Assembly (NCBI RefSeq): GCF_000004075.3
Contig: NC_026659.2
Coordinates: forward strand, 30,584,272 to 30,648,271
Reading direction: 5' to 3'
Length of the DNA stretch: 64,000 nucleotides
Origin: Cucumis sativus
Taxonomy: Eukaryota > Streptophyta > Magnoliopsida > Cucurbitales > Cucurbitaceae
A model generated the notes under the pieces. That model did not search any database. It was not told where the DNA came from and saw only the letters and a list, made by a program, of their open reading frames with translations. The position numbers and the translations under genes are program-made. Shown here piece by piece: positions 8,098-53,700 of this stretch. Within the stretch, counting starts at the first letter, position 1. Every line of letters begins with the position of its first letter.

Positions 8098-8106
8098 AAA
8101 AAAGAG
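8098..8106. repeat. 9-bp target-site duplication (left)
   Basis: The 9 bp AAAAAAGAG directly precede the left inverted repeat of the Mutator-like element and recur exactly after the right inverted repeat at 18874-18882. A 9-bp duplication is the usual target-site length of the Mutator superfamily. Confidence 0.9.
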
Positions 8107-8222
8107 GGGAAATTGACAAAAATAGGCCAAAAATGGGGTATAAATAGAGTTTTAGGATTGATTGTAGAAAAGTTGAGATTTAGGATAAATTGGAGGTGAA
8201 ATGACGAAAATACCCTCTTTTA
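8107..8222 (+). repeat. MULE left terminal inverted repeat
   Basis: 116 bp starting GGGAAATTGACAAAAAT. Its reverse complement is found at 18758-18873 with two differences: base 4 (A here, G on the right) and one base within a TATA-like word near base 35 (T here, G on the right). It probably contains the promoter of the transposase gene. Confidence 0.95.
8139..8146 (+). promoter_or_regulatory. TATA-like box in left TIR
   Basis: TATAAATA lies 33 bp inside the left inverted repeat and points towards the transposase gene. The matching position in the right repeat reads TAGAAATA, so only the left end keeps the canonical box. MULE inverted repeats commonly act as promoters; that this word is used as a TATA box is inference. 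Confidence 0.55.
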
Positions 8223-8344
8223 ATTTTAATTCACATTTGCTCTTCTCTTCTTTTCACAACCCCTTCTCCTCTCTTCCTCTTCTCTAATGTCATTCACCTG
8301 AAGAAAAAAAACAGAATTGCGAACGCAGCCTTCTTCTCCTCTCC

Positions 8345-8456
8345 TCATAGATTACGTAAAGGGAAAAAAAAAGAAGAATCCTTCTCTTGCAGTCTCATAG
8401 ATTACGTAAAGAAAAAAGAAGCATTTCTCCTCCTTCTCATAGATTATGTAAAGGAA
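8345..8456 (+). repeat. Three-copy short repeat in transposase leader
   Basis: The word TCATAGATTACGTAAAG begins at 8345 and 8395, and a variant with TATGT begins at 8437. Each copy is followed by an A-rich tract and preceded by a CT-rich tract. Copies are about 42-50 bp apart. The run lies in the presumed 5' leader of the transposase transcript. Confidence 0.8.
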
Positions 8457-9052
8457 AAAGAAAAAAGAAAAACTCATTTGCGATTCTTCTCCTCTCTCAA
8501 AAGTTTGTCAACTTTCCGCTTTACTCCGGTGTCGTTCATCATCTACTCCGGCGAACATCTCACGCATTGTGGTTTGTTTTAATTTTTAAATCCGAATCTG
8601 AATTGTGTTGTGTTATATGTATATATATTTTTGCATCTTAAATGTATAAATCAAATATTATTTTTTATTGTTTCAAGTTGATTTAGGGTTGATTTAAGGT
8701 TGCTTTATAGATGTTTCAAATGATGTTAGCAATTTATCATTATTATTATTTTATCTCGCAAACATCTGGTAGACATCTCGCAAACATCTCGCAGACATCT
8801 TGCAGGTTCTTAAATTGAAATGTTTAATCTGAAATGAATTGATTTAGGGTGACTTTTAGCTATTGTTTTTTGTATCTCGCAATATCCTAAACATTTTGTA
8901 GCTGTCAAGATCGTAAACATGTAGGGTGTGACTATGCACGTTTTATTTAGTATTTACCTACTGTTTTTTAATAAACTTTGTTTATGTGATATGTCAAATG
9001 CTAACTTCAAATCATTTTTTGCAGCAATTGAAAAGTATAAGGTGGTTTAAGG

Positions 9053-11473
9053 ATGTCACATATTCCCATGTTAGTGCGTTACGGTGGTATGTGGGATGAG
9101 AGGCGAAGAAAATACGAAGGAGGCATGTTAAAAGGCATCGTTGTCAGTAAAGAAATAACACATAAAGATTTACAGGCAGAATTATATGACCTTGCAGAAG
9201 TTGACCCTTCAAAGTTCGACGTAATGATAAGATGCATATATGAGATAAAAGTGGAACACGAAGCTCCTACATTTGAGTTAAGCAATGACCGTGATTTGAA
9301 GTTTTATCTTCTTAGTGAAAATCCATTAAAGGTCCCTTTATACGTCTCATTTGAGCCTAAAAGTAATCAAAGCAAAAAAGTGTTAAGCAAAGATTACAAT
9401 TCAGTATCTGGCAGCAACCAAGCTCATAACTTAAACCCTCATCCTCCAATTGTAATGGATACATTAAATGAGAATGAAGTCCATGTTCGTGAAGTTGAAG
9501 TTGGCTTGTGTGATAACGTGATAGGGACCACTTCGGCTATATGGGAATCATATGAGTCATATGATTCGAAAGATGAGACTTTTACATGGGAGCCAGTAGA
9601 GATGAATAGTGAATCATTTGACATCCCACAACATAGAGATGGTCCTACAAAAGATTGCAAAGGAAAATCTAAAGTTCGTTACAGCTCTTCTAGCCAAAAG
9701 TTGAAGACAGACATGAATGATTGGTCCGAAGAAAGCTCTACAAGTGAGGAGTTTGATGTAGGACAAATATTTTTTTCCAAAAAAGATTTGTCAATGAGAT
9801 TAAGTGTCTTGGCAATGAAAAAAAATTTTCAGTTTGTAGTAAAAAAGTCTACAAAAGAGGTTCTCTTTGTTAGATGCATTGACAACAAGTGTGGTTGGAG
9901 ACTGCGAGCGATGAGATTGAAGGATTCAAATATATTTAAGATTAAAAAGTATGTCAAAGTTCATTCGTGTTCTCTTGACGTTTTGAATCGTGACCATAGG
10001 CAAGCAAAATCTTGGGTTGTTGGAGAATTAATAAAGTCAAAGTTCAAGGGAGTCGGTCGTCTATACAAACCGCGTGATATCATAGAAGACATGAGGCAAG
10101 ACTATGGCATAAATATGAGTTATGAAAAAGCATGGCGCGCTAGAGAAAATGCGTATGAACGAGTGCGCGGGTGTCCTGAAGAGTCATATAATCTATTGCT
10201 TAGATATGGTGAAGCTCTCAAACTTGCAAATGTAGGTACAATATTTCACATGGAACTTGAAGATAATCGTTTCTTCAAATATCTTTTTATGGCTGTTGGT
10301 CCATGTGTTCGAGGATTCTTAAACTGCATTAGACCGGTTATAGTCATGGATGGAACATTCCTTAAGAACAAATATCGGGGTCAGTTGATAGTTGCTGTTT
10401 GCTTGGATGGTAACAATCAAATTTATCCTCTTGCCTTTGGAGTGGTGGACAGAGAAACAGATGCTTCAATACAGTGGTTCTTAGAGAAATTGAAAGGTGC
10501 AATAGGAGAGGTGCCTAATCTAGGCTTCGTGACAGATCGAAAAACATGTTTTTCTAAGTGTATTGCATCGGTTTTTCCCTCCGCATTCCATGGACTTTGT
10601 GTCCAACACTTGACTCAAAATTTGAATGATAAATACAAGAATGACACTATAGCTACTTTGTTTTACAATGCATCTAGAACATACCGTGAATCAACGTTCT
10701 CAGAAGCGTGGAGAAGTATTCTTGCATTTCCTAATGATTCAGGAAAATATTTAAACGATGTTGGAATAACACGTTGGTCTCGTTTTCACTGTCCAGGAAG
10801 ACGATATAATATGATGACAACAAATATAGCAGAGTCCATGAATTCTATACTGAAAGAACCTAGAGATTTGCCTATTGCTTCATTCCTTGAACATGTTCGA
10901 GCTTTGCTACAACGTTGGTTTTGGGAGCGTCGAGAAGAAGGCATTAAAGTGACGTCTACATTGACTAAATGGGCAGAGTTAGTTCTACAAAAGAAACAAG
11001 AACGAGCTTTGACAATGAAAGTCAACCCAATTGATTGTTACCAATTCCATGTTAAAGATTTAGATAAAGAGGAGGTCATAAATCTTCATACTCAAGAGTG
11101 CACTTGTAAGGAGTTTCAAGCTGAGCAACTACCATGCGCACATGCCATTGCTGTTGCACGGGATCGCAATATAAATGTTTATAGCTTATGTGCTAACTAT
11201 TACACTAATGAATGTTTGTTGGCAGCATATTCGGAGGCCGTCTACCCAGTTGGGAATCAGTCGGAATGGAAGACAACCGAAGAATATGTACATATGACTG
11301 TCTTACCTCCGAAAGTAGTCAAAAGAGTTGGTCGACCGAAGAAAAAGAGGATTCCAAGTGTCGGTGAAGCACCAAAATTGCATAAATGTGGTCGATGTAA
11401 AGAAACAGGCCACAATAGATTAACGTGTACCAATCCAATTTCATACATCCAGAAGTCGAGCATACAAGATTAG
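9053..11473 (+). CDS. MURA-type MULE transposase (mudrA-like), 806 aa
   Basis: This gene encodes the transposase that would cut and reinsert the surrounding element. The single uninterrupted frame has the order expected for plant MULE transposases. An N-terminal PB1-like region spans about residues 5-90, then an acidic linker. A MuDR-type zinc region has C275, C280, H304 and C306. The MULE catalytic core has D433 in VMDGTF, D495 in VTDRK, C516/H519 in GLCVQHL and E551 as the likely third acidic residue. A SWIM zinc finger uses C683, C685, C695 and H697. An AT-hook-like GRPKKKR sits near 760-766, and a CCHC knuckle uses C779, C782, H787 and C792. The ATG follows a good splice acceptor (TTTTTTGCAG at 9015-9024), which suggests a 5'UTR intron. 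No frameshift or stop interrupts it, so it may be functional. Confidence 0.95.
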   Translation: MSHIPMLVRYGGMWDERRRKYEGGMLKGIVVSKEITHKDLQAELYDLAEVDPSKFDVMIRCIYEIKVEHEAPTFELSNDRDLKFYLLSENPLKVPLYVSFEPKSNQSKKVLSKDYNSVSGSNQAHNLNPHPPIVMDTLNENEVHVREVEVGLCDNVIGTTSAIWESYESYDSKDETFTWEPVEMNSESFDIPQHRDGPTKDCKGKSKVRYSSSSQKLKTDMNDWSEESSTSEEFDVGQIFFSKKDLSMRLSVLAMKKNFQFVVKKSTKEVLFVRCIDNKCGWRLRAMRLKDSNIFKIKKYVKVHSCSLDVLNRDHRQAKSWVVGELIKSKFKGVGRLYKPRDIIEDMRQDYGINMSYEKAWRARENAYERVRGCPEESYNLLLRYGEALKLANVGTIFHMELEDNRFFKYLFMAVGPCVRGFLNCIRPVIVMDGTFLKNKYRGQLIVAVCLDGNNQIYPLAFGVVDRETDASIQWFLEKLKGAIGEVPNLGFVTDRKTCFSKCIASVFPSAFHGLCVQHLTQNLNDKYKNDTIATLFYNASRTYRESTFSEAWRSILAFPNDSGKYLNDVGITRWSRFHCPGRRYNMMTTNIAESMNSILKEPRDLPIASFLEHVRALLQRWFWERREEGIKVTSTLTKWAELVLQKKQERALTMKVNPIDCYQFHVKDLDKEEVINLHTQECTCKEFQAEQLPCAHAIAVARDRNINVYSLCANYYTNECLLAAYSEAVYPVGNQSEWKTTEEYVHMTVLPPKVVKRVGRPKKKRIPSVGEAPKLHKCGRCKETGHNRLTCTNPISYIQKSSIQD

Positions 11474-12902
11474 TACCCGTCTTGGTACGTAGTAATAGTT
11501 TTATACTTGCTTGGTTTGTGCTTGCGTTGTTTGCATGATCACGATGTAAAAAAGGTTCATTTTTTTAATGCAGGTGGAAGATGCTTATAAAATTGTGTCC
11601 TGTGTTGTTTGCAAGATCACTAAAGTCATCTCACTGACAATTCTAAGTTGAAGACTTTTCTTCTGCAACTTCAAGACTTTCCTTCTCTTTTTTTTTTATC
11701 CTACAGTGAACTGTTTATAGAATATTTACTCCTTTGGCATTTCAAGCTTTTTGAGAAAGACTTGAAATCCTATTATGACAATATTGTGTGCTTTAGAACT
11801 CAATAAATGCTCTCCTTTTGCTACTGCAGTATTAATGATGCAAATCTTGCTGATTACTTTTAGTTTTTACATTCATCTTCAAGGTTCAGCCTCTGTTAGT
11901 TTTTACAAGGTTCAGCCCTTGCTGATTACTTAAAGGTTCAGCCCTTGCTGCATTTGAAGCCTCTTGCTGATTACTTAAAGTGTGCAGTAGTAATAAATGC
12001 AAAGCTTTTGCTACTTTTAGTTTTTACAAGGTTCAGCCTCTTCAAGCATATGAACCACCATTTGCATGAAGGGCCTTGTAGATGGAATCTTAGTCGTGCA
12101 GCGAAGTGCGATCCTTACCACTTTGACTGCGTTCTCCACTTTGATATGCTGGGATCTACCATCTCTTTCAGATTACCTTTTAGATATCTCATTCTGCTTT
12201 CCTGTTGTTTTCCTGGCAGTTGTCTTAGAAAATGGGCTTCTTTTATGTTGGTACTTCCATTAGAACAACTCCAAAGCTGCAAAGAATAATGTTTGAACAA
12301 TCCATGAGAAGTAAATAATATTGTGTGCTTTAGAACTCAATAACTGCTCTCCTTTTGCTACTGCAGTAGTAATGATTCAAATCTTCAAGCATATGAACCA
12401 CCTCTTCAAGCATAGTAATCTCAAGCATAGTAATCTCAATGCAGTAGTAATGAGTTGACTCTGAAAGTTCAGGTAGTAGCAAGACTGAGCTAATTTTAAG
12501 TAATGTATAAAGCCGGCTGGTTAACAGCAAAGGTACAGAACAAGACACAGATCAAAATGCTGCTATTGGTAATGAGGATCAATTGTTCGTACATAAGATG
12601 TTTTTATAATGAAAACCTGCTACGTGAGGCTATATATAAATCAGTTCCGCAGCCACCATAAACCTCTGCTCCACCACCGGTAACACATCAAGAATGTCTA
12701 TATAAAAGTTCTGCACACTTTACAATTTTTCACCTGCATTGTTGTACATTATATAAAAGTTCTGCACACTTTACAATTTTCCAAGATAATGAAATAAAAA
12801 TTGCATACCAAAAAACAAAAATGGTCTTCATTCCATTATATAAAACTATTTATGTACATAGTTTGGAACATATACAATTCCTTCGAAAGTTGAAACTGAA
12901 AG
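11474..12902. other. Spacer between the two convergent MULE genes, with internal duplication
   Basis: No coding content is recognised. It probably holds the 3'UTRs of the two converging transcripts. AAGGTTCAGCC recurs several times within 11880-12040. A block of about 65 bp at 11784-11848 ('attgtgtgctttagaactc', 'ctactgcagta') is repeated at about 12320-12383. The word 'ttctgcacactttacaattt' occurs at about 12711 and 12760. The spacer has therefore grown by small duplications. Confidence 0.6.
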
Positions 12903-15852
12903 TCAATACATGGGATTGTTGGTCCATAATTGAAATGCCAATTGTTTTCTAAAATATGACATGTTTTCTTGACATAATGTAGCTACATCTAAACCAGAAG
13001 CTTCATATTCGAAATACTTAATTGTAAATACACCACAATCACTATTGTTGCGTTGAAGTGGAATGGAGTCGACAATGACAAGTGGCCAAGGTTCCTTGTG
13101 TGTTGATGATCCGCCTCTCCTAACAAAGAATCCAGTAGCATCGAGCAAATTTGGCACCATCTCTTGAATTGGCTCTAATATGCTTCTCATATCTTCGGCA
13201 CTCGTCAGCGACGGAAGCGAATCCCATACCTTAACTTGACAACGTACCAAGTCCAAGCATAATAGAATCCAATGATTGCCATGGATATTGAATGGAGAGT
13301 AAATGTAATCAACATTCACCCAAGGATCTTGACAGTCTTGTTTTGATCCGACAACATAGTCAACCAACCGATACTCCTCCTTCCAGTGAAATGGTCGATT
13401 CTCTTTAATACATTCTTGGTATTCAGGCCACTTCGCAACTAATAGTCGCTGGAAGGAAAAAAAACACACATGCATGTATACAATGAGACAATAAGACAAA
13501 TATCAAAAGCAAACTCAGTACATAAAGTATGGTTGCGAGTACAAACCATGAATAGTGTGTCTACAGTTGTGAAGTTTTGAGCAGTAGGTATCATGGCTGT
13601 CTTAATGTTGAAGCGAATGAGAAGAAACAGTGCATCCAAATGCTAATAGAAACAAAATAAAGCATTTAATTCGGTTATGCGATCAAACCAACTTCTTGAA
13701 GGTACTAAGTGCTCTAAAACTGTAAATAAGAAATAATGAGAAAAGTTCTAACCTCATCCGCCAACCACCGACGACACATGAACAAGTCTCTGAAAAACTC
13801 CTTCGATTTTTTCCCGTGAAAAGTTTCACGCACCTCATCTTTCGTACGCTTGTCTGTGATCCAAGCTCTGAGTCGATCTAAATGGGCGTCAGGTATTTTG
13901 TGCATAGGATCATAGACGGATGGTTGAGACTGAGAGGTGGTGGTGATTGATTTTGTAGTCCGTTTATCTAAAGCTGTGAAGGGGGTTGACAAGTATACAC
14001 TTGCACGCTTGCTACGTGCGGGCCGAACATGTGGTCGTTCAGTGGATAATGGTTCTATTTCCATGACGTCTGAATCAAAATAAGTAAGACTTTTTACTCC
14101 AATTTCCTCGTTCAAATCGTCAACGACGTCTACTGGCTCCTCCGAATGAATATGAACCTTCTTATCCAACTCATCCATTGTGTCATCCTCCGTGCGGTTT
14201 GCTTCGACACCCTATGGAAGGTCAAAATGCATTACTAAGGATAAAGCATTAGTAAGGATGATTTTCACCCCACTACAGAACTTTGATTCCTAACCTGCTT
14301 TTGACGTTCAACATGTTTCACCCATCACTTGTGTCATCCTCCTTGGGCATCCTCAACCAAGAAGGTGTACCGGGTGTGTCAACATCTTCGGTCTGGGCAT
14401 CATGACCTTCAACTCCCGTGCAGTCTCCTTCTTCACCCTTTGGAAATGTCAAAATGTATTGGTAACGTTAAACAAACTTTGAAAATGTTAAACAAACTTT
14501 GATTCCTAACCTTTTTTTGAACTTCAAGGTGTTTCAATATAGTCGACAGCATTGATTTTAGGCTTTCACGTTCATTCTCGAGAACCGCTACTCGATATTT
14601 GAGTTTTCGAACAACTTCTTTCATCTTAGACTTCCACTTCTTCTTTTTCTTACTCTTTTTGCAGTCATTGTCATCATTACTAGCTTCTCCTGGTCGTTTT
14701 GAATCACCATTCTTCTCAGAAACGGTGTTATATGGATGAGTTTTCTCAACAAGTTCCCCTGAAGACATTCTTAGATGCTCCTCCTCTTCAGGCATCATCT
14801 CAATTACCACGTTAATTAAGAACTACAAAGTGGAAATGTAGTTAGTTAGTCAAAACATAAAGGAACAAAGTCATGCATTCGGTAAGTTACTGTTTGTTGA
14901 TACTTACCATTGGTGAGTCAAACACCTGCCTCTGTAGGACATGAGACTTCGGCGATAGTTCGCACACCCACCTCAGCATTCGTGGTATTGCATCGTTGCT
15001 TACTTTATGTACACCACATTCAGTGATGGTTGGTATAGACTCATATGCCCAAACCTATTCCATGTTCAACAAAACAAGTTTAGCAAGTGTCCCAAGATAT
15101 ATGTATATATAAATATGTGCATAGGAAGTAAAGTAACATACCTGTAACGCCTGCGGAAATCCCATGACAGTATATTTTGTCTTAGTTGATTTATTCTTTC
15201 CCTTGGCATGTTGCATGTCCAAGGCTCGTTTTAAGGCAGAAAGTGTACGTCCAAAAACCAACCCTCCCCAATCGTAATTGTTAAATGTGGTCCAATCATC
15301 TGCAATCCTAAATAAAGTTCGGTCCACTTTCGTCCGCCTATCTTTTCCTAACAATGACATCTCTATAAAGTAAACTAGAGCTAATTTAACTATGTCATCG
15401 TCATCGTCATCCCCCTCGTATTCCACAAATGTGTCCTCTAAGTCACTTATATAAATACACTTTTTTTGTTCGAAGAACTTCTCCAACAACCTACTATTCC
15501 CAACCAAATCAATAGGCTCTGGTTGAGAACTCCATAGACCCGTCATCATATTAAATTCTCTCCTTCCAAAACTGCACACGACTTCTCCTATCTTGAAACT
15601 TATGTGATCAACCCTTTCATCTTCCACCTCTCTTAACAATAAGTAGTGGATGAGCGGCCCATTAAAGATTATATTCAGATCCAAAAAGTGGCCGAACTTT
15701 GTATTTCTAAATAAGGTTAATTGATCCGGTTTCAATTTAGCCTTTATTGTACGTGTACTGTTTTCTAAATGTGCTAAACTACTTACTATAGACTGAAAAT
15801 GATGAGCAGGGTCAATCTTGTACATGGGACCGTTAGTTGATGTCGAAGCCAT
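12903..15852 (-). CDS. DUF1985 / Ulp1-type (C48) cysteine protease-like gene carried by the MULE
   Basis: Spliced model: 15852-15142, 15054-14908, 14822-14511, 14211-13753, 13642-13547 and 13448-12903, about 756 aa, all joins in phase with GT-AG borders. Exon 1 encodes a DUF1985-like region (FKIGEVVCSFGRREF, then MMTGL). Exon 3 has a Lys-rich stretch and a probable coiled coil. The last exon is the peptidase core, with His in GNHW, Asp in VKVWDS, Gln in PLQRNN and Cys in SDCG, the His-Asp-Gln-Cys arrangement of Ulp1/SENP SUMO proteases. A possible extra exon at 14437-14295 (143 bp, good splice sites) would break the frame with a TGA, so the model leaves it out. The start ATG follows a 5'UTR acceptor (TTTTATGCAG at 15861-15870). 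Cellular Ulp1 removes SUMO from proteins; its role in a MULE is unknown. It occupies the position of mudrB in MuDR. Confidence 0.85.
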
Positions 15853-15932
15853 ACTGAGACCTGCATAAAAAAAAAAACTAATTAAATATAATTGCATAAG
15901 AGACTTACTTAACATGGATGCACTAGCATCTT

Positions 15933-17968
15933 GGGACTTCTACTCAAAATTTTGGAAGGTGAGAGATAGGTGCTGATAGGTGAGAGATGATGAAAAACTT
16001 CAAGGCAAAGTTGCTAAGTCTAATAGAATTGCTAACCCTATAGCCTTAACACCTAGTAGACTAGCTAAACATGCATTCTAAACCGTTTAGGAAGTTTACA
16101 CTCTTATATTGGGACTTCTACTCAAAATTTTGGAAGGTGAGAGATAGGTGCTGATAGGTGAGAGATGATGGAAAACTTCAAGGCAAAGTTGCTAAGTCTA
16201 ATACAATTGCTAACCCTATAGCCTTAACACCTAGTAGACTAGCTAAACATGCATTCTAAACCGTTTAGGAAGTTTACACTCTTATATTGGGACTTCTACT
16301 CAAAATTTTGGAAGGTGAGAGATAGGTGCTGATAGGTGAGAGATGATGGAAAACTTCAAGGCAAAGTTGCTAAGTCTAATACAATTGCTAACCCTATAGC
16401 CTTAACACCTAGAAGACTAGCTAAACATGCATTCTAAACGGTTTAGGAAGTTAACACTCTTATATTGGGACTTCTACTCAAAATTTTGGAAGGTGAGAGA
16501 TAGGTGCTGATAGGTGAGAGATGATGGAAAACTTCAAGGCAAAGTTGCTAAGTCTAATACAATTGCTAACCCTATAGCCTTAACACCTAGTAGACTAGCT
16601 AAACATGCATTCTAAACCGTTTAGGAAGTTTACACTCTTATATTGGGACTTCTACTCAAAATTTTGGAAGGTGAGAGATAGGTGCTGATAGGTGAGAGAT
16701 GATGGAAAACTTCAAGGCAAAGTTGCTAAGTCTAATACAATTGCTAACCCTATAGCCTTAACACCTAGTAGACTAGCTAAACATGCATTCTAAACCGTTT
16801 AGGAAGTTTACACTCTTATATTGGGACTTCTACTCAAAATTTTGGAAGGTGAGAGATAGGTGCTGATAGGTGAGAGATGATGGAAAACTTCAAGGCAAAG
16901 TTGCTAAGTCTAATACAATTGCTAACCCTATAGCCTTAACACCTAGAAGACTAGCTAAACATGCATTCTAAACGGTTTAGGAAGTTAACACTCTTATATT
17001 GGGACTTCTACTCAAAATTTTGGAAGGTGAGAGATAGGTGCTGATAGGTGAGAGATGATGGAAAACTTCAAGGCAAAGTTGCTAAGTCTAATACAATTGC
17101 TAACCCTATAGCCTTAACACCTAGTAGACTAGCTAAACATGCATTCTAAACCGTTTAGGAAGTTTACACTCTTATATTGGGACTTCTACTCAAAATTTTG
17201 GAAGGTGAGAGATAGGTGCTGATAGGTGAGAGATGATGGAAAACTTCAAGGCAAAGTTGCTAAGTCTAATACAATTGCTAACCCTATAGCCTTAACACCT
17301 AGTAGACTAGCTAAACATGCATTCTAAACCGTTTAGGAAGTTTACACTCTTATATTGGGACTTCTACTCAAAATTTTGGAAGGTGAGAGATAGGTGCTGA
17401 TAGGTGAGAGATGATGGAAAACTTCAAGGCAAAGTTGCTAAGTCTAATACAATTGCTAACCCTATAGCCTTAACACCTAGTAGACTAGCTAAACATGCAT
17501 TCTAAACGGTTTAGGAAGTTAACACTCTTATATTGGGACTTCTACTCAAAATTTTGGAAGGTGAGAGATAGGTGCTGATAGGTGAGAGATGATGGAAAAC
17601 TTCAAGGCAAAGTTGCTAAGTCTAATACAATTGCTAACCCTATAGCCTTAACACCTAGTAGACTAGCTAAACATGCATTCTAAACCGTTTAGGAAGTTTA
17701 CACTCTTATATTGGGACTTCTACTCAAAATTTTGGAAGGTGAGAGATAGGTGCTGATAGGTGAGAGATGATGGAAAACTTCAAGGCAAAGTTGCTAAGTC
17801 TAATACAATTGCTAACCCTATAGCCTTAACACCTAGTAGACTAGCTAAACATGCATTCTAAACGGTTTAGGAAGTTAACACTCTTATATTGGGACTTCTA
17901 CTCAAAATTTTGGAAGGTGAGAGATAGGTGCTGATAGGTGAGAGATGATGGAAAACTTCAAGGCAAAG
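15933..17968. repeat. 178-bp tandem array, about 11.4 copies
   Basis: Units begin at GGGACTTCTACTC at 15933, 16111, 16289, 16467, 16645, 16823, 17001, 17179, 17357, 17535, 17713 and 17891 (last partial), exactly 178 bp apart. Copies are almost identical. Two variant classes differ at 'aaccgtttaggaagtttac' versus 'aacggtttaggaagttaac' and are arranged mostly as class 1, class 1, class 2, a 534-bp higher-order unit. Each unit has one AACCCTA telo-box-like word. The array lies in the probable 5'UTR intron of the protease gene. Confidence 0.97.
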
Positions 17969-18757
17969 GAAATGGTCTTTCAACAATGCAGCTTATGATA
18001 ATGTCTTTAGAATACAATATTTAGAATGCATGTTTAGCACATATCTATTGTACTGGTAACTTTGCAGAGTTTATATGGGATACCAAATATATGTTCGAAT
18101 TCAAGTTCTAAACTCCAAGGTATGGTTTTTCTATTATTACAGTACATTGCAAAGGAAATGGTTTTTCTTCCTAAAAACAGAATGGCTCCCACGGTTCTCT
18201 ATGTCTGTGTGCATATGACATGCATTTCTTCTCCAAAATGTGCCAAAAACAAAAAACTCACATCTTAACAGACAACTTAAACAAACAAGATGGAATACTG
18301 TAATAATAAATAAGCTACAACAGACTAACTCTAAAAAAAAAACTGAGATTTTATTACTCACTTGACTTCAAAGATGATGGATACGGCACTGCCAATGTAG
18401 AGGAGTGGATAAGAAATGGAGAGGTCCGGTGAAAACAAACCTGAAATCGAAATGGATGGAAGTGGAGAAGCGTCCGCCGGAGATGAAGTCGAAATGGAGA
18501 CCCGTGCAGAAGAAATGGAGACGTTCGGTGAACAAGTTGAAATCGGAAAATATAGCGGAGAGTCGTGAAGAAGAAATGGATGGAAGTGGAGAAGAAATGG
18601 ACGGAAGAGAAAAACGTTCACCGGAGGCGGAGCGGAGAGAGTTGAAGAGGGTAACTGCAGACGCGGGAGAGTTCAAATGCGAGTTTACGTTTTTCTTTTG
18701 AACGGCCTTTGCTGTTCGGGTTGAAGAAAAGGAAAAAGAAGAAAAGAGGAAGGAAAA
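17969..18757 (-). other. Probable leader region of the MULE protease gene
   Basis: Between the tandem array and the right inverted repeat there is no recognisable coding content. On the minus strand a strong donor GTGAGT (18361-18356) could pair with the acceptor at 15862-15861, giving a 2.5-kb 5'UTR intron that holds the array. The part at 18362-18700 is more GC-rich than the host DNA and is built of imperfect GAAATGGA-type repeats on the plus strand. 'gcaaaggaaatggt' occurs twice, near 17964 and 18150. Confidence 0.45.
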
Positions 18758-18873
18758 TAAAAGAGGGTATTTTCGTCATTTCACCTCCAATTTATCCTAA
18801 ATCTCAACTTTTCTACAATCAATCCTAAAACTCTATTTCTACCCCATTTTTGGCCTATTTTTGTCAATTCCCC
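18758..18873 (-). repeat. MULE right terminal inverted repeat
   Basis: Reverse complement of 8107-8222 with two substitutions in 116 bp. Read inward on the minus strand it begins GGGGAATTGACAAAAAT and would drive the protease gene. Its TATA-like word is altered to TAGAAATA. Confidence 0.95.
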
Positions 18874-18882
18874 AAAAAAGAG
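18874..18882. repeat. 9-bp target-site duplication (right)
   Basis: AAAAAAGAG, identical to 8098-8106. Removing the element and one copy gives a continuous host sequence across the junction. Confidence 0.9.
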
Positions 18883-43986: not shown

Positions 43987-44060
43987 TGGCCCATGCAGGT
44001 TTCGAACCTGCGACCTTCGCGTTATTAGCACGACGCTCTAACCAACTGAGCTAATAGGCC
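43987..44060 (-). tRNA. tRNA-Ile (anticodon AAU)
   Basis: A 74-nt cloverleaf. The acceptor stem GGCCTAT pairs with ATGGGCC (one G-U pair), with discriminator A. The A box is TAGCTCAGTTGG, and the anticodon loop CTAATAA gives AAU. The T arm is GCAGGTTCGAAACCTGC. There is no intron and no encoded CCA. It starts 69 bp beyond the MYB stop codon on the opposite strand. Confidence 0.95.
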
Positions 44061-50752: not shown

Positions 50753-53700
50753 ATGAATTGGATACAAAGGAAGATCTACCTTTATAATGTCACATTTGGG
50801 TTGTACATGTTGGATTGGTGGGAGCGTATCCTCTTCAGTATGCTCTCTATCCCAAGGGATATTTGATCTGTTTTATCATTTGCAAGCATGCGTAGTACGT
50901 GTTTCAGATAAAGTTATGCCGCCAGTATCTTGTCCAGCCAAATAATTACTGATATTTACTATTTCTTTTGTTGATATTAAGATTTAATATTGATTTTTCA
51001 TTATTCGAGTTATGTCCTGCTCTGTGGATGATGGATATATGGCTATATGTTATATAATTTTCAATCATGCTTGTTCGGTGTGTCAGTATCTTATGTTAAC
51101 TGGATTTAGGATTTGTCTAGTTAGATGTTGAATTTCATTGGTTCAATAATTTCTGTGAGATTGAATTTAATTTGTGCAACTCTTTTCTTTTTCTTACTAT
51201 TGACCTCTTGAATTCTTCAAATATTATTGTAGATACAATGGTGGTTGTGCTGATGTGGTTCATGTTTTACAATGGGTCACGATACGTGAATGATATGTGC
51301 AAGAGGTATTGTATTTATCTTTACTCTACCATTTCCTTTTCACAATCGGGAAATAAAATATATATTACAATTGATTGCACATATTGCAGTAGACATTTGA
51401 TAATCCAACCACCAAAGAAAATATTGTTCCTCTATTTTCATGTGACCTTAGTCCAGCAAAATAAAAACAGTGGTTACATATTTGTTCTTCTTTCTGATTT
51501 AATTATAACTGTTTAGACCATTAATTTATAGAAATGCAACATAAAGGGGGAGAATCTAACTCCAAAGGAATCAGAGTAACACAACAGCTCGAAGTACTTT
51601 AATTGAGGGATGAGGAGATGATAGTTAGAGAACTCTCTGGAGGGGAAGCTCCAAGAGTAGAATAGCAAAACAGTGTCGCCCCAAATCTTATAGGGTTCAT
51701 TTCTTTCATTTGTCCTATAAGGATCTCCTGTTATTTGTAACCAACTTTCTGAATAAATAGCCTTATAGTTTCTGAAGATTTATGTTTGGCCAATCCAACC
51801 ACAAGTTAAAGAACTACATCTTGGAGCAAAATTATGCTATAACGGTCAGGTAGTTTTTTAGTTGGGAACGTCCTCAAAGACAAGAAGGGAAAAAATTATT
51901 TTAGTTATCTAAATCTCCTCTCTTATTTTTTTTTGATAAGAGACAAATATATTCATATAACAAAACAGAACATCCTAAGGGCGAGGGACAAGAGGGCCCT
52001 CCCCGGAAGAAGCTAGGGAACTAAGACATGATGGCCTTCCAATTGTTGAAAATCATAGAAAGACTATAATTACAAAAGTGTTTGGTGTAATTCGTACTCC
52101 ACCAAGAGGCTGTGTGTTGAACCACAGTCCAAAAAGAATCAAAAGAATTAAATCTATCTTCAAAAATTCTGCTATTCCTTTCTTTCCAAATGCTCCACAA
52201 AAGGGAACGCGTCGCACATTTCCATAAGATGTTTCCTTTAGGGCTGTAACCTCTAATGTTAAGACCTTCAATCATCCAACTATCAATCTTACTAGGAAGA
52301 CAAAGCTCCAAGTCAAAAATACCAAACAGAGTGTTCCAAGCTTTTTTTGTGAAGGGACAATGTAGAAATAAATGATCCAAGGTTTCCTCATCTTTAGAGC
52401 ATAGGCAACACATCGAGGGGCTAAGCAATCCAAGGTTTCCTCATCTTTAGAGCATAGGCAACACATCGAGGGGCTAAGCAATGTGTTCTGAATTGTTGAG
52501 GCTTCTGTAAGCAAGCGACCATAAGAAAAACTTCACCTTCTTCGGAATTTTATTCTTCCAAATATGACGAATCAAGGGAACAGCAATGTTGGGGGATCTC
52601 TTAGTTAAGTTAAGAAAAGTAGACTTTTGGAATTTAGTCTCCTCTCTTATTGAAAAGGATATTTAGTCTTAGGATGTATTTAGGATTGTTTCTCAAGTAA
52701 TGACTTTTGGAATGGATGGAAAATTATTTGGATGATTGGTTCTATACTATGCGATGGTTTCTTACATAGCACTTTAAGGTGCTTATATATATCTATATAT
52801 GTACATATTTGGATAAGAGACGGGTATATTCAGAAGAACAAAGTAGAACAGCCTAAGGGTAAGGAATGAAAGGGCCCTCTCCAAGAAAGACTATAAATAA
52901 GAGTTCCAATTGTTAAAAATTATAGAAAGGCTATCATTACAAAAGTGTTTGGTGTAGTTGGTACTCCACGAAGAAGCTGTGTGTTGAACCACAGTAAAAA
53001 AGAATCAAAAGAATTATATTTATCTTAAAAAATTATTCTATTTCTCTCATTCCAATTGAACCACAATAGGGATCAAGAGCACATCACCACAGAATGTTAC
53101 CCTTCGGGCAAAAAACTTTGCTGTTGAGCCCTTCATGCATCCAACTATCAATGTTGCTAGGAAGACAAAAATCCAGATTGAAAATTCTGAACAACATAGA
53201 CCAGCCTTTCAAAACGAAGTCACAAAGGAATACAAAGGCAGCACATAGAAGGGCTGAGAGCAAAGTACCGAAACTTTCTTTGGAGCTTTTCATGAAAAAT
53301 TATAGAAAGGCTATAATTACGAAATTGTTTGGTTAGGTGCTATGTTTTTTTTAAAACGTGAAATTTTTTAAAAGACAGTTGCCAAAGATACTCTCGAGGA
53401 TGGCCTTCATCACACATTGCTCCAATTATCGTTTGTTATTCTTACAAAACACTCTCAAGGCTATCATTTATTATGCTTTTACTTCTGCAAATCTTTATCT
53501 CCTCTGAGTCTAATTAACAGTGACAGAGTGACATTATGGTCATTGGCAACATGAAACCCTTTTTATGTTTTAAATCATAAGCCAATCAAGAACTTGATTT
53601 TCATACAATCAAAATTCATTTAGATGGTTTAAGTCATGTTTCGGAATGATTTTAAACACAATTTTAACCATTTCATAATCACTCCCAAACTTTCAACACA

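Follow-up and report, generated by a model that had tools for sequence, protein, structure and literature searches.

Introduction

Maize MuDR combines long terminal inverted repeats (TIRs), a 9-bp target-site duplication (TSD) and two convergent genes. Among Mutator-like elements (MULEs), CUMULE is reportedly an Ulp1-bearing one, described by van Leeuwen in 2007. Here we describe a 10,767-bp MULE at positions 8107..18873 of a 64,000-nucleotide stretch of the cucumber genome (C5:30584272-30648271; we call this whole stretch the window). The element carries an intact transposase gene, a convergent second gene predicted to encode a DUF1985-Ulp1 protein, and a tandem array of 178-bp units.

In Arabidopsis, VANC proteins bind short motifs within tandem repeats in the non-coding regions of the transposons that carry their genes, causing methylation loss, and these target repeats expand and contract, according to the accessible parts of PMC5735166 and PMC10398659. 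DUF1985 is a domain of VANC proteins (PMC5735166, Fig. 5 legend), and the same paper, as far as its accessible text goes, treats the way in which VANC removes silencing once bound as an open question. KIU genes are VANC genes that bear an Ulp1 domain and are active on related Arabidopsis elements; the accessible text of a review (PMC13317346) gives the role of that Ulp1 domain as unknown.

We interpret the window element as a full-length, recent member of the cucumber CsMULE family that is probably autonomous and may carry its own anti-silencing gene acting via the array. Weighing the structural and comparative analyses below, we give this explanation as a whole a probability of about 0.7. All copy comparisons were made within one 226.6-Mb, 88-contig cucumber genome.

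Ends and transposase

The ends of the element and its transposase gene are located as follows.

8098..8106, no strand: left TSD, AAAAAAGAG (from the sequence)
8107..8222, plus strand: left TIR, 116 bp (from copy comparison)
8139..8146, plus strand: TATAAATA in the left TIR, possible transposase promoter (left-specific T at 8141)
9053..11473, plus strand: transposase gene, 806 aa, one open frame (from domain search)
18758..18873, minus strand: right TIR, 116 bp (from copy comparison)
18874..18882, no strand: right TSD, AAAAAAGAG (from the sequence)

A first-pass annotation made from the sequence had described 116-bp inverted repeats with two differences, a perfect 9-bp target duplication and an intact transposase, and had proposed a structurally complete, candidate autonomous MULE. 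The matched ends, the TSD and the open frames bear this out. The 9-bp duplication AAAAAAGAG is perfect on both sides, and the TIRs are 98.3% alike over 116 bp, differing only at position 4 (8110, A left and G right) and position 35 (8141, T left and G right). Long TIRs, a TSD within the range of 8-11 bp and a MULE domain identify the element as Mutator-like.

The 45-bp end pattern was found at 104 genome places with up to 3 mismatches and at none with a reversed control, so the pattern is not a product of chance. Among the 100 places listed, 25 are exact (TATAAATAG), every one of them a left end from the left-end search described below, and 38 read TAGAAATAG, including known right ends. An older copy, L038, reads TAGAAAAAG at both of its ends. 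The left TIR has TATAAATA, which from its consensus we take to be a TATA box, where the right TIR has TAGAAATA; it is a possible promoter of the transposase gene, and further TATA-like sites lie at 8620 and 8645. The exact pattern bearing TATAAATA occurs at 25 left ends among the places listed; the known right ends and L038 lack it. A promoter built stepwise in the left TIR could have aided the recent burst of the family.

The 806-aa transposase contains MULE (PF10551, 2.7e-20), DBD_Tnp_Mut and SWIM domains, and a CX2CX4HX4C pattern was spotted by eye at its C-terminus. A genome search with the protein gave 65 matches from the best 56 of 854 candidates; among these, an identical transposase is present at at least 13 places, window included, and other copies of the family are diverged and contain stops. 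The window transposase differs from that of L038 by 3 synonymous and 2 non-synonymous changes, too few to judge selection.

The second gene

The second gene lies on the minus strand, from 15852 to 12903. Its predicted six-exon GT-AG model encodes 756 aa and is stop-free.

15142..15852, minus strand: exon 1, DUF1985 domain, VANC21 homologue (GT-AG model and domain search)
14908..15054, minus strand: exon 2 (GT-AG model)
14511..14822, minus strand: exon 3, Lys-rich (GT-AG model)
13753..14211, minus strand: exon 4 (GT-AG model)
13547..13642, minus strand: exon 5 (GT-AG model)
12903..13448, minus strand: exon 6, Ulp1/C48 catalytic part (GT-AG model and domain search)

Peptidase_C48 (PF02902, 2.2e-28) and DUF1985 (PF09331, 4.4e-15) both score above the Pfam cut-off in the 756-aa model; a Plant mobile domain match in the N-terminal part is sub-threshold. 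The frame of the last exon alone gives a C48 match of 6.9e-26 that starts at profile position 36. The joined model supports the six-exon structure because its C48 match reaches profile position 1 and rises to 2.2e-28.

A search of solved structures with the 756-aa model returned 16 matches at E<=1. VANC21 was the best (9lnj, E=6e-10, residues 69-265), followed by SENP1 and SENP2, which cover the C-terminal part. His634, Asp651, Gln707 and Cys713 of the model align with His, Asp, Gln and Cys of SENP1, which we take to be its catalytic residues. A single-sequence structure model of the DUF1985 exon had a mean pLDDT of 30.6 and was useless for a fold search. The predicted second protein is thus a VANC-type DUF1985 domain fused to a SENP/Ulp1 protease: it has the C48 domain with the His-Asp-Gln-Cys set of Ulp1-bearing MULEs and a DUF1985 domain related to VANC. 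The convergent Ulp1-type gene with its four residues had been recognized in the first-pass annotation; the protease assignment stands, but the gene is not just a protease, and the VANC-type N-terminal part had been overlooked.

Stop-free 100% matches, window counted, were found at 17 genome places for exon 3 and at 15 for exon 4. The window and L038 second genes differ by 13 synonymous and 24 non-synonymous changes, again too few to judge selection. At one exon end of this gene, a stretch of 42 bp is present twice (14279-14320 and 14495-14536; 86% alike), the two copies lying 216 bp apart, which suggests an exon duplication bypassed by the gene model.

Family copies and the CsMYB60 insertion

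The left-end search of the genome gave 40 matches, the best 40 of 346 candidates scored, window included. We fetched 10 further copies out of the 39 listed besides the window, and surveyed the ends of 14 elements: the window element, these 10, C4:0.64M, L037 and L038. Eleven have perfect 9-bp TSDs, all different; one has a 10-bp TSD (by eye), one has a damaged right end, and for one no right end was found within 15 kb. In the copy at C4:3614492-3629792 (L031, L032), the right TIR lacks its outer 10 bp, and part of the left flank recurs in the right flank.

An apparently intact gene pair had been called unusual in the first-pass annotation; in this genome it is not. Four second-gene segments were searched genome-wide, with exons 2 and 5 outside that search, and at least seven copies, window included, keep an identical transposase together with stop-free matches to all four (C1:10.58M, C1:19.27M, C2:9.41M, C3:9.30M, C5:12.78M, the window and C7:5.84M). 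The C5:12.78M copy has all six second-gene exons identical to those of the window. In an eighth, C1:11.39M, the four segments are all present and the transposase match is shorter by two codons.

Internal deletions relative to the window element are present in 9 of the 10 fetched copies. At the 10 deletion junctions examined, the joined ends either overlap by 1-7 bp or are separated by filler of 8-17 bp; they are compatible with interrupted gap repair, and the shortest overlaps (1-2 bp) may have arisen by chance. The intergenic part of the window element contains a 69-bp direct repeat (96%), at 11780-11848 and 12317-12385, and some deletion junctions of other copies fall within or close to it. 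In the protease-exon search, 17 of 125 matches have one common truncated form. L037 (C5:2380300-2385300), the fetched example of this amplified short form, is about 3.1 kb long, with a 9-bp TSD (GAGAATAAA) and the family right TIR and without transposase; its right part is CsMULE, and its left end differs from the family, with only about 20 bp alike. A derivative of this type would have spread only in trans. The open frames, the identical copies and such transposase-less derivatives make the window element a candidate for autonomy.

One derivative connects this family to a described insertion. C4:636794-643788 (C4:0.64M) is a 6,995-bp family member with a 9-bp TSD (AAGAAACTT) between frames with R2R3-MYB signatures. 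It has the identical 806-aa transposase, and its left-TIR 45-mer is exact. What it keeps of the second gene is one 269-aa frame that matches the DUF1985 query at residues 1-71 and the protease query at residues 5-198; outside the array, the right part of this copy has 4 differences from the window in 1,456 bp. It is an internal deletion derivative, and the window copy is full length. The published CsMULE (MG558001; CsMYB60 intron 2; PMC6305189) is 6,994 bp long and has a matching placement; we made this comparison with the published description, as far as accessible, and not with the GenBank record MG558001 itself. From this near-identity with the CsMYB60 insertion we infer that the window element belongs to the CsMULE family. 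The accessible text of PMC6305189 describes CsMULE with a transposase gene only, whereas the window copy has the second gene too.

According to the same accessible text (PMC6305189), 'Chinese long' 9930 and eight more white-spined lines carry the CsMYB60 insertion, and RNS9 and five more black-spined lines lack it. The black-spined RNS14 and RNS15 have the insertion plus a second one of 2,759 bp, and five white-spined lines have a stop codon in its place. This distribution among lines indicates that the insertion is polymorphic and that its tie to white spines is not absolute. The genome analysed here is probably that of 9930 or of a closely similar line.

Age of the insertion

The first-pass annotation considered the element young. 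Copy-to-copy identity upholds this, but the TIR differences fail as a dating argument. All 11 copies examined (the window and the 10 fetched) share one left TIR sequence, and all 8 of them with a full right end, window included, share one right TIR sequence, with which the 65 and 106 bases remaining in two further copies agree. The two differences are common to all the examined copies with complete ends and thus predate these insertions. We rejected them as an age measure, since they are a fixed left/right asymmetry in all 8 copies with complete ends; as this element shows, inverted-repeat differences are no clock for DNA transposons.

A search for near-identical copies elsewhere in the genome had been proposed in the first-pass annotation, and it succeeded. 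Divergence of the 10 fetched copies from the window, measured outside the array, is 0.045-0.166%, with matches below 150 bp excluded from the divergence counts except in the C3:32.0M copy, where three of the five differences from the window are perhaps misplaced repeat matches. L038 differs from the window by 1.59%. Positions that set the window apart from every covering copy fall into two clusters, 8275-8276 and 18710-18714, and window-specific short length differences lie near 8256-8285 and at 18630-18633. Over about 8.7 kb compared with 10 copies, parts of the second gene being covered by 2-4 copies, we found no isolated private base change in the window. At an Arabidopsis-like mutation rate of about 7e-9 per site and generation, the absence of private changes would put the insertion at no more than about 50,000 generations ago, a rough figure that conversion could bias.

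Such conversion among copies could also make an old element look young. The private changes of the window are multi-base clusters and short length differences near the ends, as conversion or template switching could leave. Against this, copies on different chromosomes are about equally alike, most of them within their own perfect TSD, and other family copies are still diverged and contain stops. A sister copy is also polymorphic between cultivars (accessible text of PMC6305189). We consider an old element rejuvenated by conversion highly improbable. Recent transposition remains our preferred reading: by copy-to-copy identity, on which its youth rests, the window element is very recently transposed. 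When the joined flanks were compared with this genome for a paralogous empty site, each flank matched nothing beyond its own side of the element. For a sister copy, the empty-site check proposed in the first-pass annotation is answered by the lines that lack the CsMYB60 insertion (PMC6305189).

The 178-bp tandem array

The first-pass annotation had missed a tandem array that makes up 19% of the element and is placed between the second-gene start and the right TIR, upstream of the second gene.

15931..17968, no strand: 178-bp tandem array, 11.4 copies, with GGTGAGAGAT micro-repeats (from repeat analysis)

Each unit in the window carries two GGTGNGAGAT micro-repeats. In the window, all 24 sites have A as the variable base N of GGTGNGAGAT. 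In the older C1:11.97M copy, 13 of 15 sites have C and the remaining 2 have T, and in C7:6.18M and C5:15.49M this base is mixed. We read this pattern as evolution in concert across the array. Nine array-bearing copies have 6, 9, 9, 11, 11, 12, 12, 15 and 16 unit starts, one of those with 12 being the window, and two of the fetched copies have no array. C3:32.0M has lost the whole array and keeps both termini and a 10-bp TSD.

A 31-bp core of the unit was found at 400 genome places with up to 2 mismatches and at none with a reversed control. The array as a general cucumber satellite was rejected: the 100 core places listed coincide, by eye, with coordinates of family members. A burst driven by array growth is likewise unsupported, array size being variable among young and old copies alike. 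In L046 (C5:15489700-15492800), two arrays of 178-bp units adjoin in opposite orientations, an arrangement that would arise if an element had landed within or next to the array of another.

The place of the array, between the right TIR and the second-gene start, is where a promoter or a subterminal site would be expected. The array could then be a cis element, holding transposase-binding sites or serving as a promoter or enhancer of the second gene, rather than a target of the second protein. A splice-acceptor-like tract just before the ATG suggests that transcription may begin upstream and run through the array. Subterminal sites on the right side only fit this poorly, and complete ends also occur in elements with one or two units. 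C3:32.0M retains its ends and TSD with no array at all, though that loss may postdate insertion. A purely cis role is in our estimate improbable.

Slightly less improbable, though still unlikely, is that the second gene travels as a passenger, an Ulp1-type gene captured long ago and of no help to transposition, beside an array that is a neutral minisatellite drifting in number. The wide variation in array number would fit this, as would the second gene of the older L038, which is frame-broken, and at least two copies with identical transposase that have lost the second gene partly or wholly (C3:32.0M, 10-bp TSD; C4:0.64M, 9-bp TSD). However, second-gene loss says little, because shorter copies can move in trans and some may have undergone deletion only once inserted, and in seven copies all four searched second-gene segments are open alongside an identical transposase. 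A VANC21-like DUF1985 domain with an adjoining tandem array is, moreover, the arrangement reported for anti-silencing MULEs in the accessible text of PMC5735166.

Proposed mechanism

We prefer a scheme in which the element counters its own silencing. The transposase, perhaps expressed from the TATA box of the left TIR, would cut and insert DNA with these ends, deleted relatives included. The protein from the second gene would work in two parts: a DUF1985 part that binds short motifs recurring in the non-coding DNA of the element, most likely in the 178-bp array, and a SENP/Ulp1 part that removes SUMO, or a related tag, from host silencing proteins at those sites. Array-bearing copies would then escape methylation, exposing the transposase promoter and allowing the transposase to be expressed. 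This reading draws on VANC21 as the best structure match, the non-coding array beside the gene, the variable array number, the concerted change of GGTGNGAGAT and the Ulp1-bearing KIU genes of Arabidopsis, which according to a review work in this manner (PMC13317346). Homology and anatomy are what we observed; binding, demethylation and deSUMOylation are proposed by analogy with VANC proteins. Its most specific form is tentative, and we think it may well be wrong: that the VANC-type domain and SUMO protease recognize the GGTGNGAGAT micro-repeats, that C-to-A turnover of the array accompanied the burst that included the CsMYB60 insertion, and that deSUMOylation removes silencing.

Several observations weigh against array-mediated anti-silencing. 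Among the seven complete copies, C2:9.41M and C3:9.30M have only two unit cores each, and the older L038, which is complete-ended, has a single unit; a long array is thus not required for having transposed. The second gene of L038 has 1-base gaps in exons 3 and 4. Exact VANC21 and VANC6 motifs were not found in the element. Array-unit 8-mers occur 45 times in the other non-coding DNA of the element against a simulated mean of 34 (maximum 54, 50 runs), which is not a clear enrichment. The 10-mers and 11-mers occur there 12 and 9 times, more than in any of the 50 runs (maxima 8 and 5); judging by the 8-mer hits listed, however, this excess may be largely due to one inverted partial unit at about 18022-18038, beside the array. 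As in VANC systems, a repeated micro-motif is present; its enrichment beyond the array and its surroundings is not clear.

If the fusion works as proposed, it would point to deSUMOylation as the way in which such factors lift silencing, and because a VANC-like domain is joined here to a protease of known substrate class, that answer becomes directly testable. The CsMYB60 copy is a deletion derivative, and the window element and six more full-length copies may be the source of the activity that lies behind an agronomic allele. They are also a possible endogenous tagging tool in cucumber.

Other features of the window

A tRNA gene at window positions 43987-44060, on the minus strand, is the sole Rfam match in the window. 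Outside the element, an open frame at 52021-52428 presumably resembles the zinc-binding C-terminal region of plant LINE reverse transcriptases.

Comparison with known systems

The window element shares long TIRs, a 9-bp TSD and two convergent genes with maize MuDR. Its second gene is a DUF1985-Ulp1 gene; the genes of MuDR are named mudrA and mudrB in the accessible text of PMC6446971.

What is new here is a full-length member of the known CsMULE and Ulp1-bearing MULE kinds. On CsMULE in cucumber, our literature search, with most subscription papers outside it, found only PMC6305189, the accessible text of which does not describe the full-length element and array. Nor are these described in the DUF1985 literature covered, with the same restriction to largely open papers and their accessible parts. 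The DUF1985 locus L039 is 40% identical and has no array comparable to the 178-bp array.

By domain content alone, and in the accessible descriptions, CUMULE and other Ulp1-bearing MULEs of melon, Arabidopsis and rice combine a MULE with an Ulp1-type second gene, as here; CUMULE comes from melon, which belongs to the same genus, Cucumis, as the host of the window element. The VANDAL/VANC MULEs of Arabidopsis have a transposase, a DUF1985 protein and non-coding tandem repeats, as in the window element (PMC5735166 and PMC10398659, accessible parts). VANDALs, which are non-TIR MULEs, have TIRs that are lacking or short and degenerate, whereas those of the window element are 116 bp long, so by its TIRs it is not a VANDAL; some relatives in the VANDAL group do bear TIRs (PMC6446971, accessible parts). 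In its second gene, the cucumber element resembles the KIU (Kaonashi) genes of Arabidopsis, which are Ulp1-bearing VANC genes according to the accessible text of PMC13317346.

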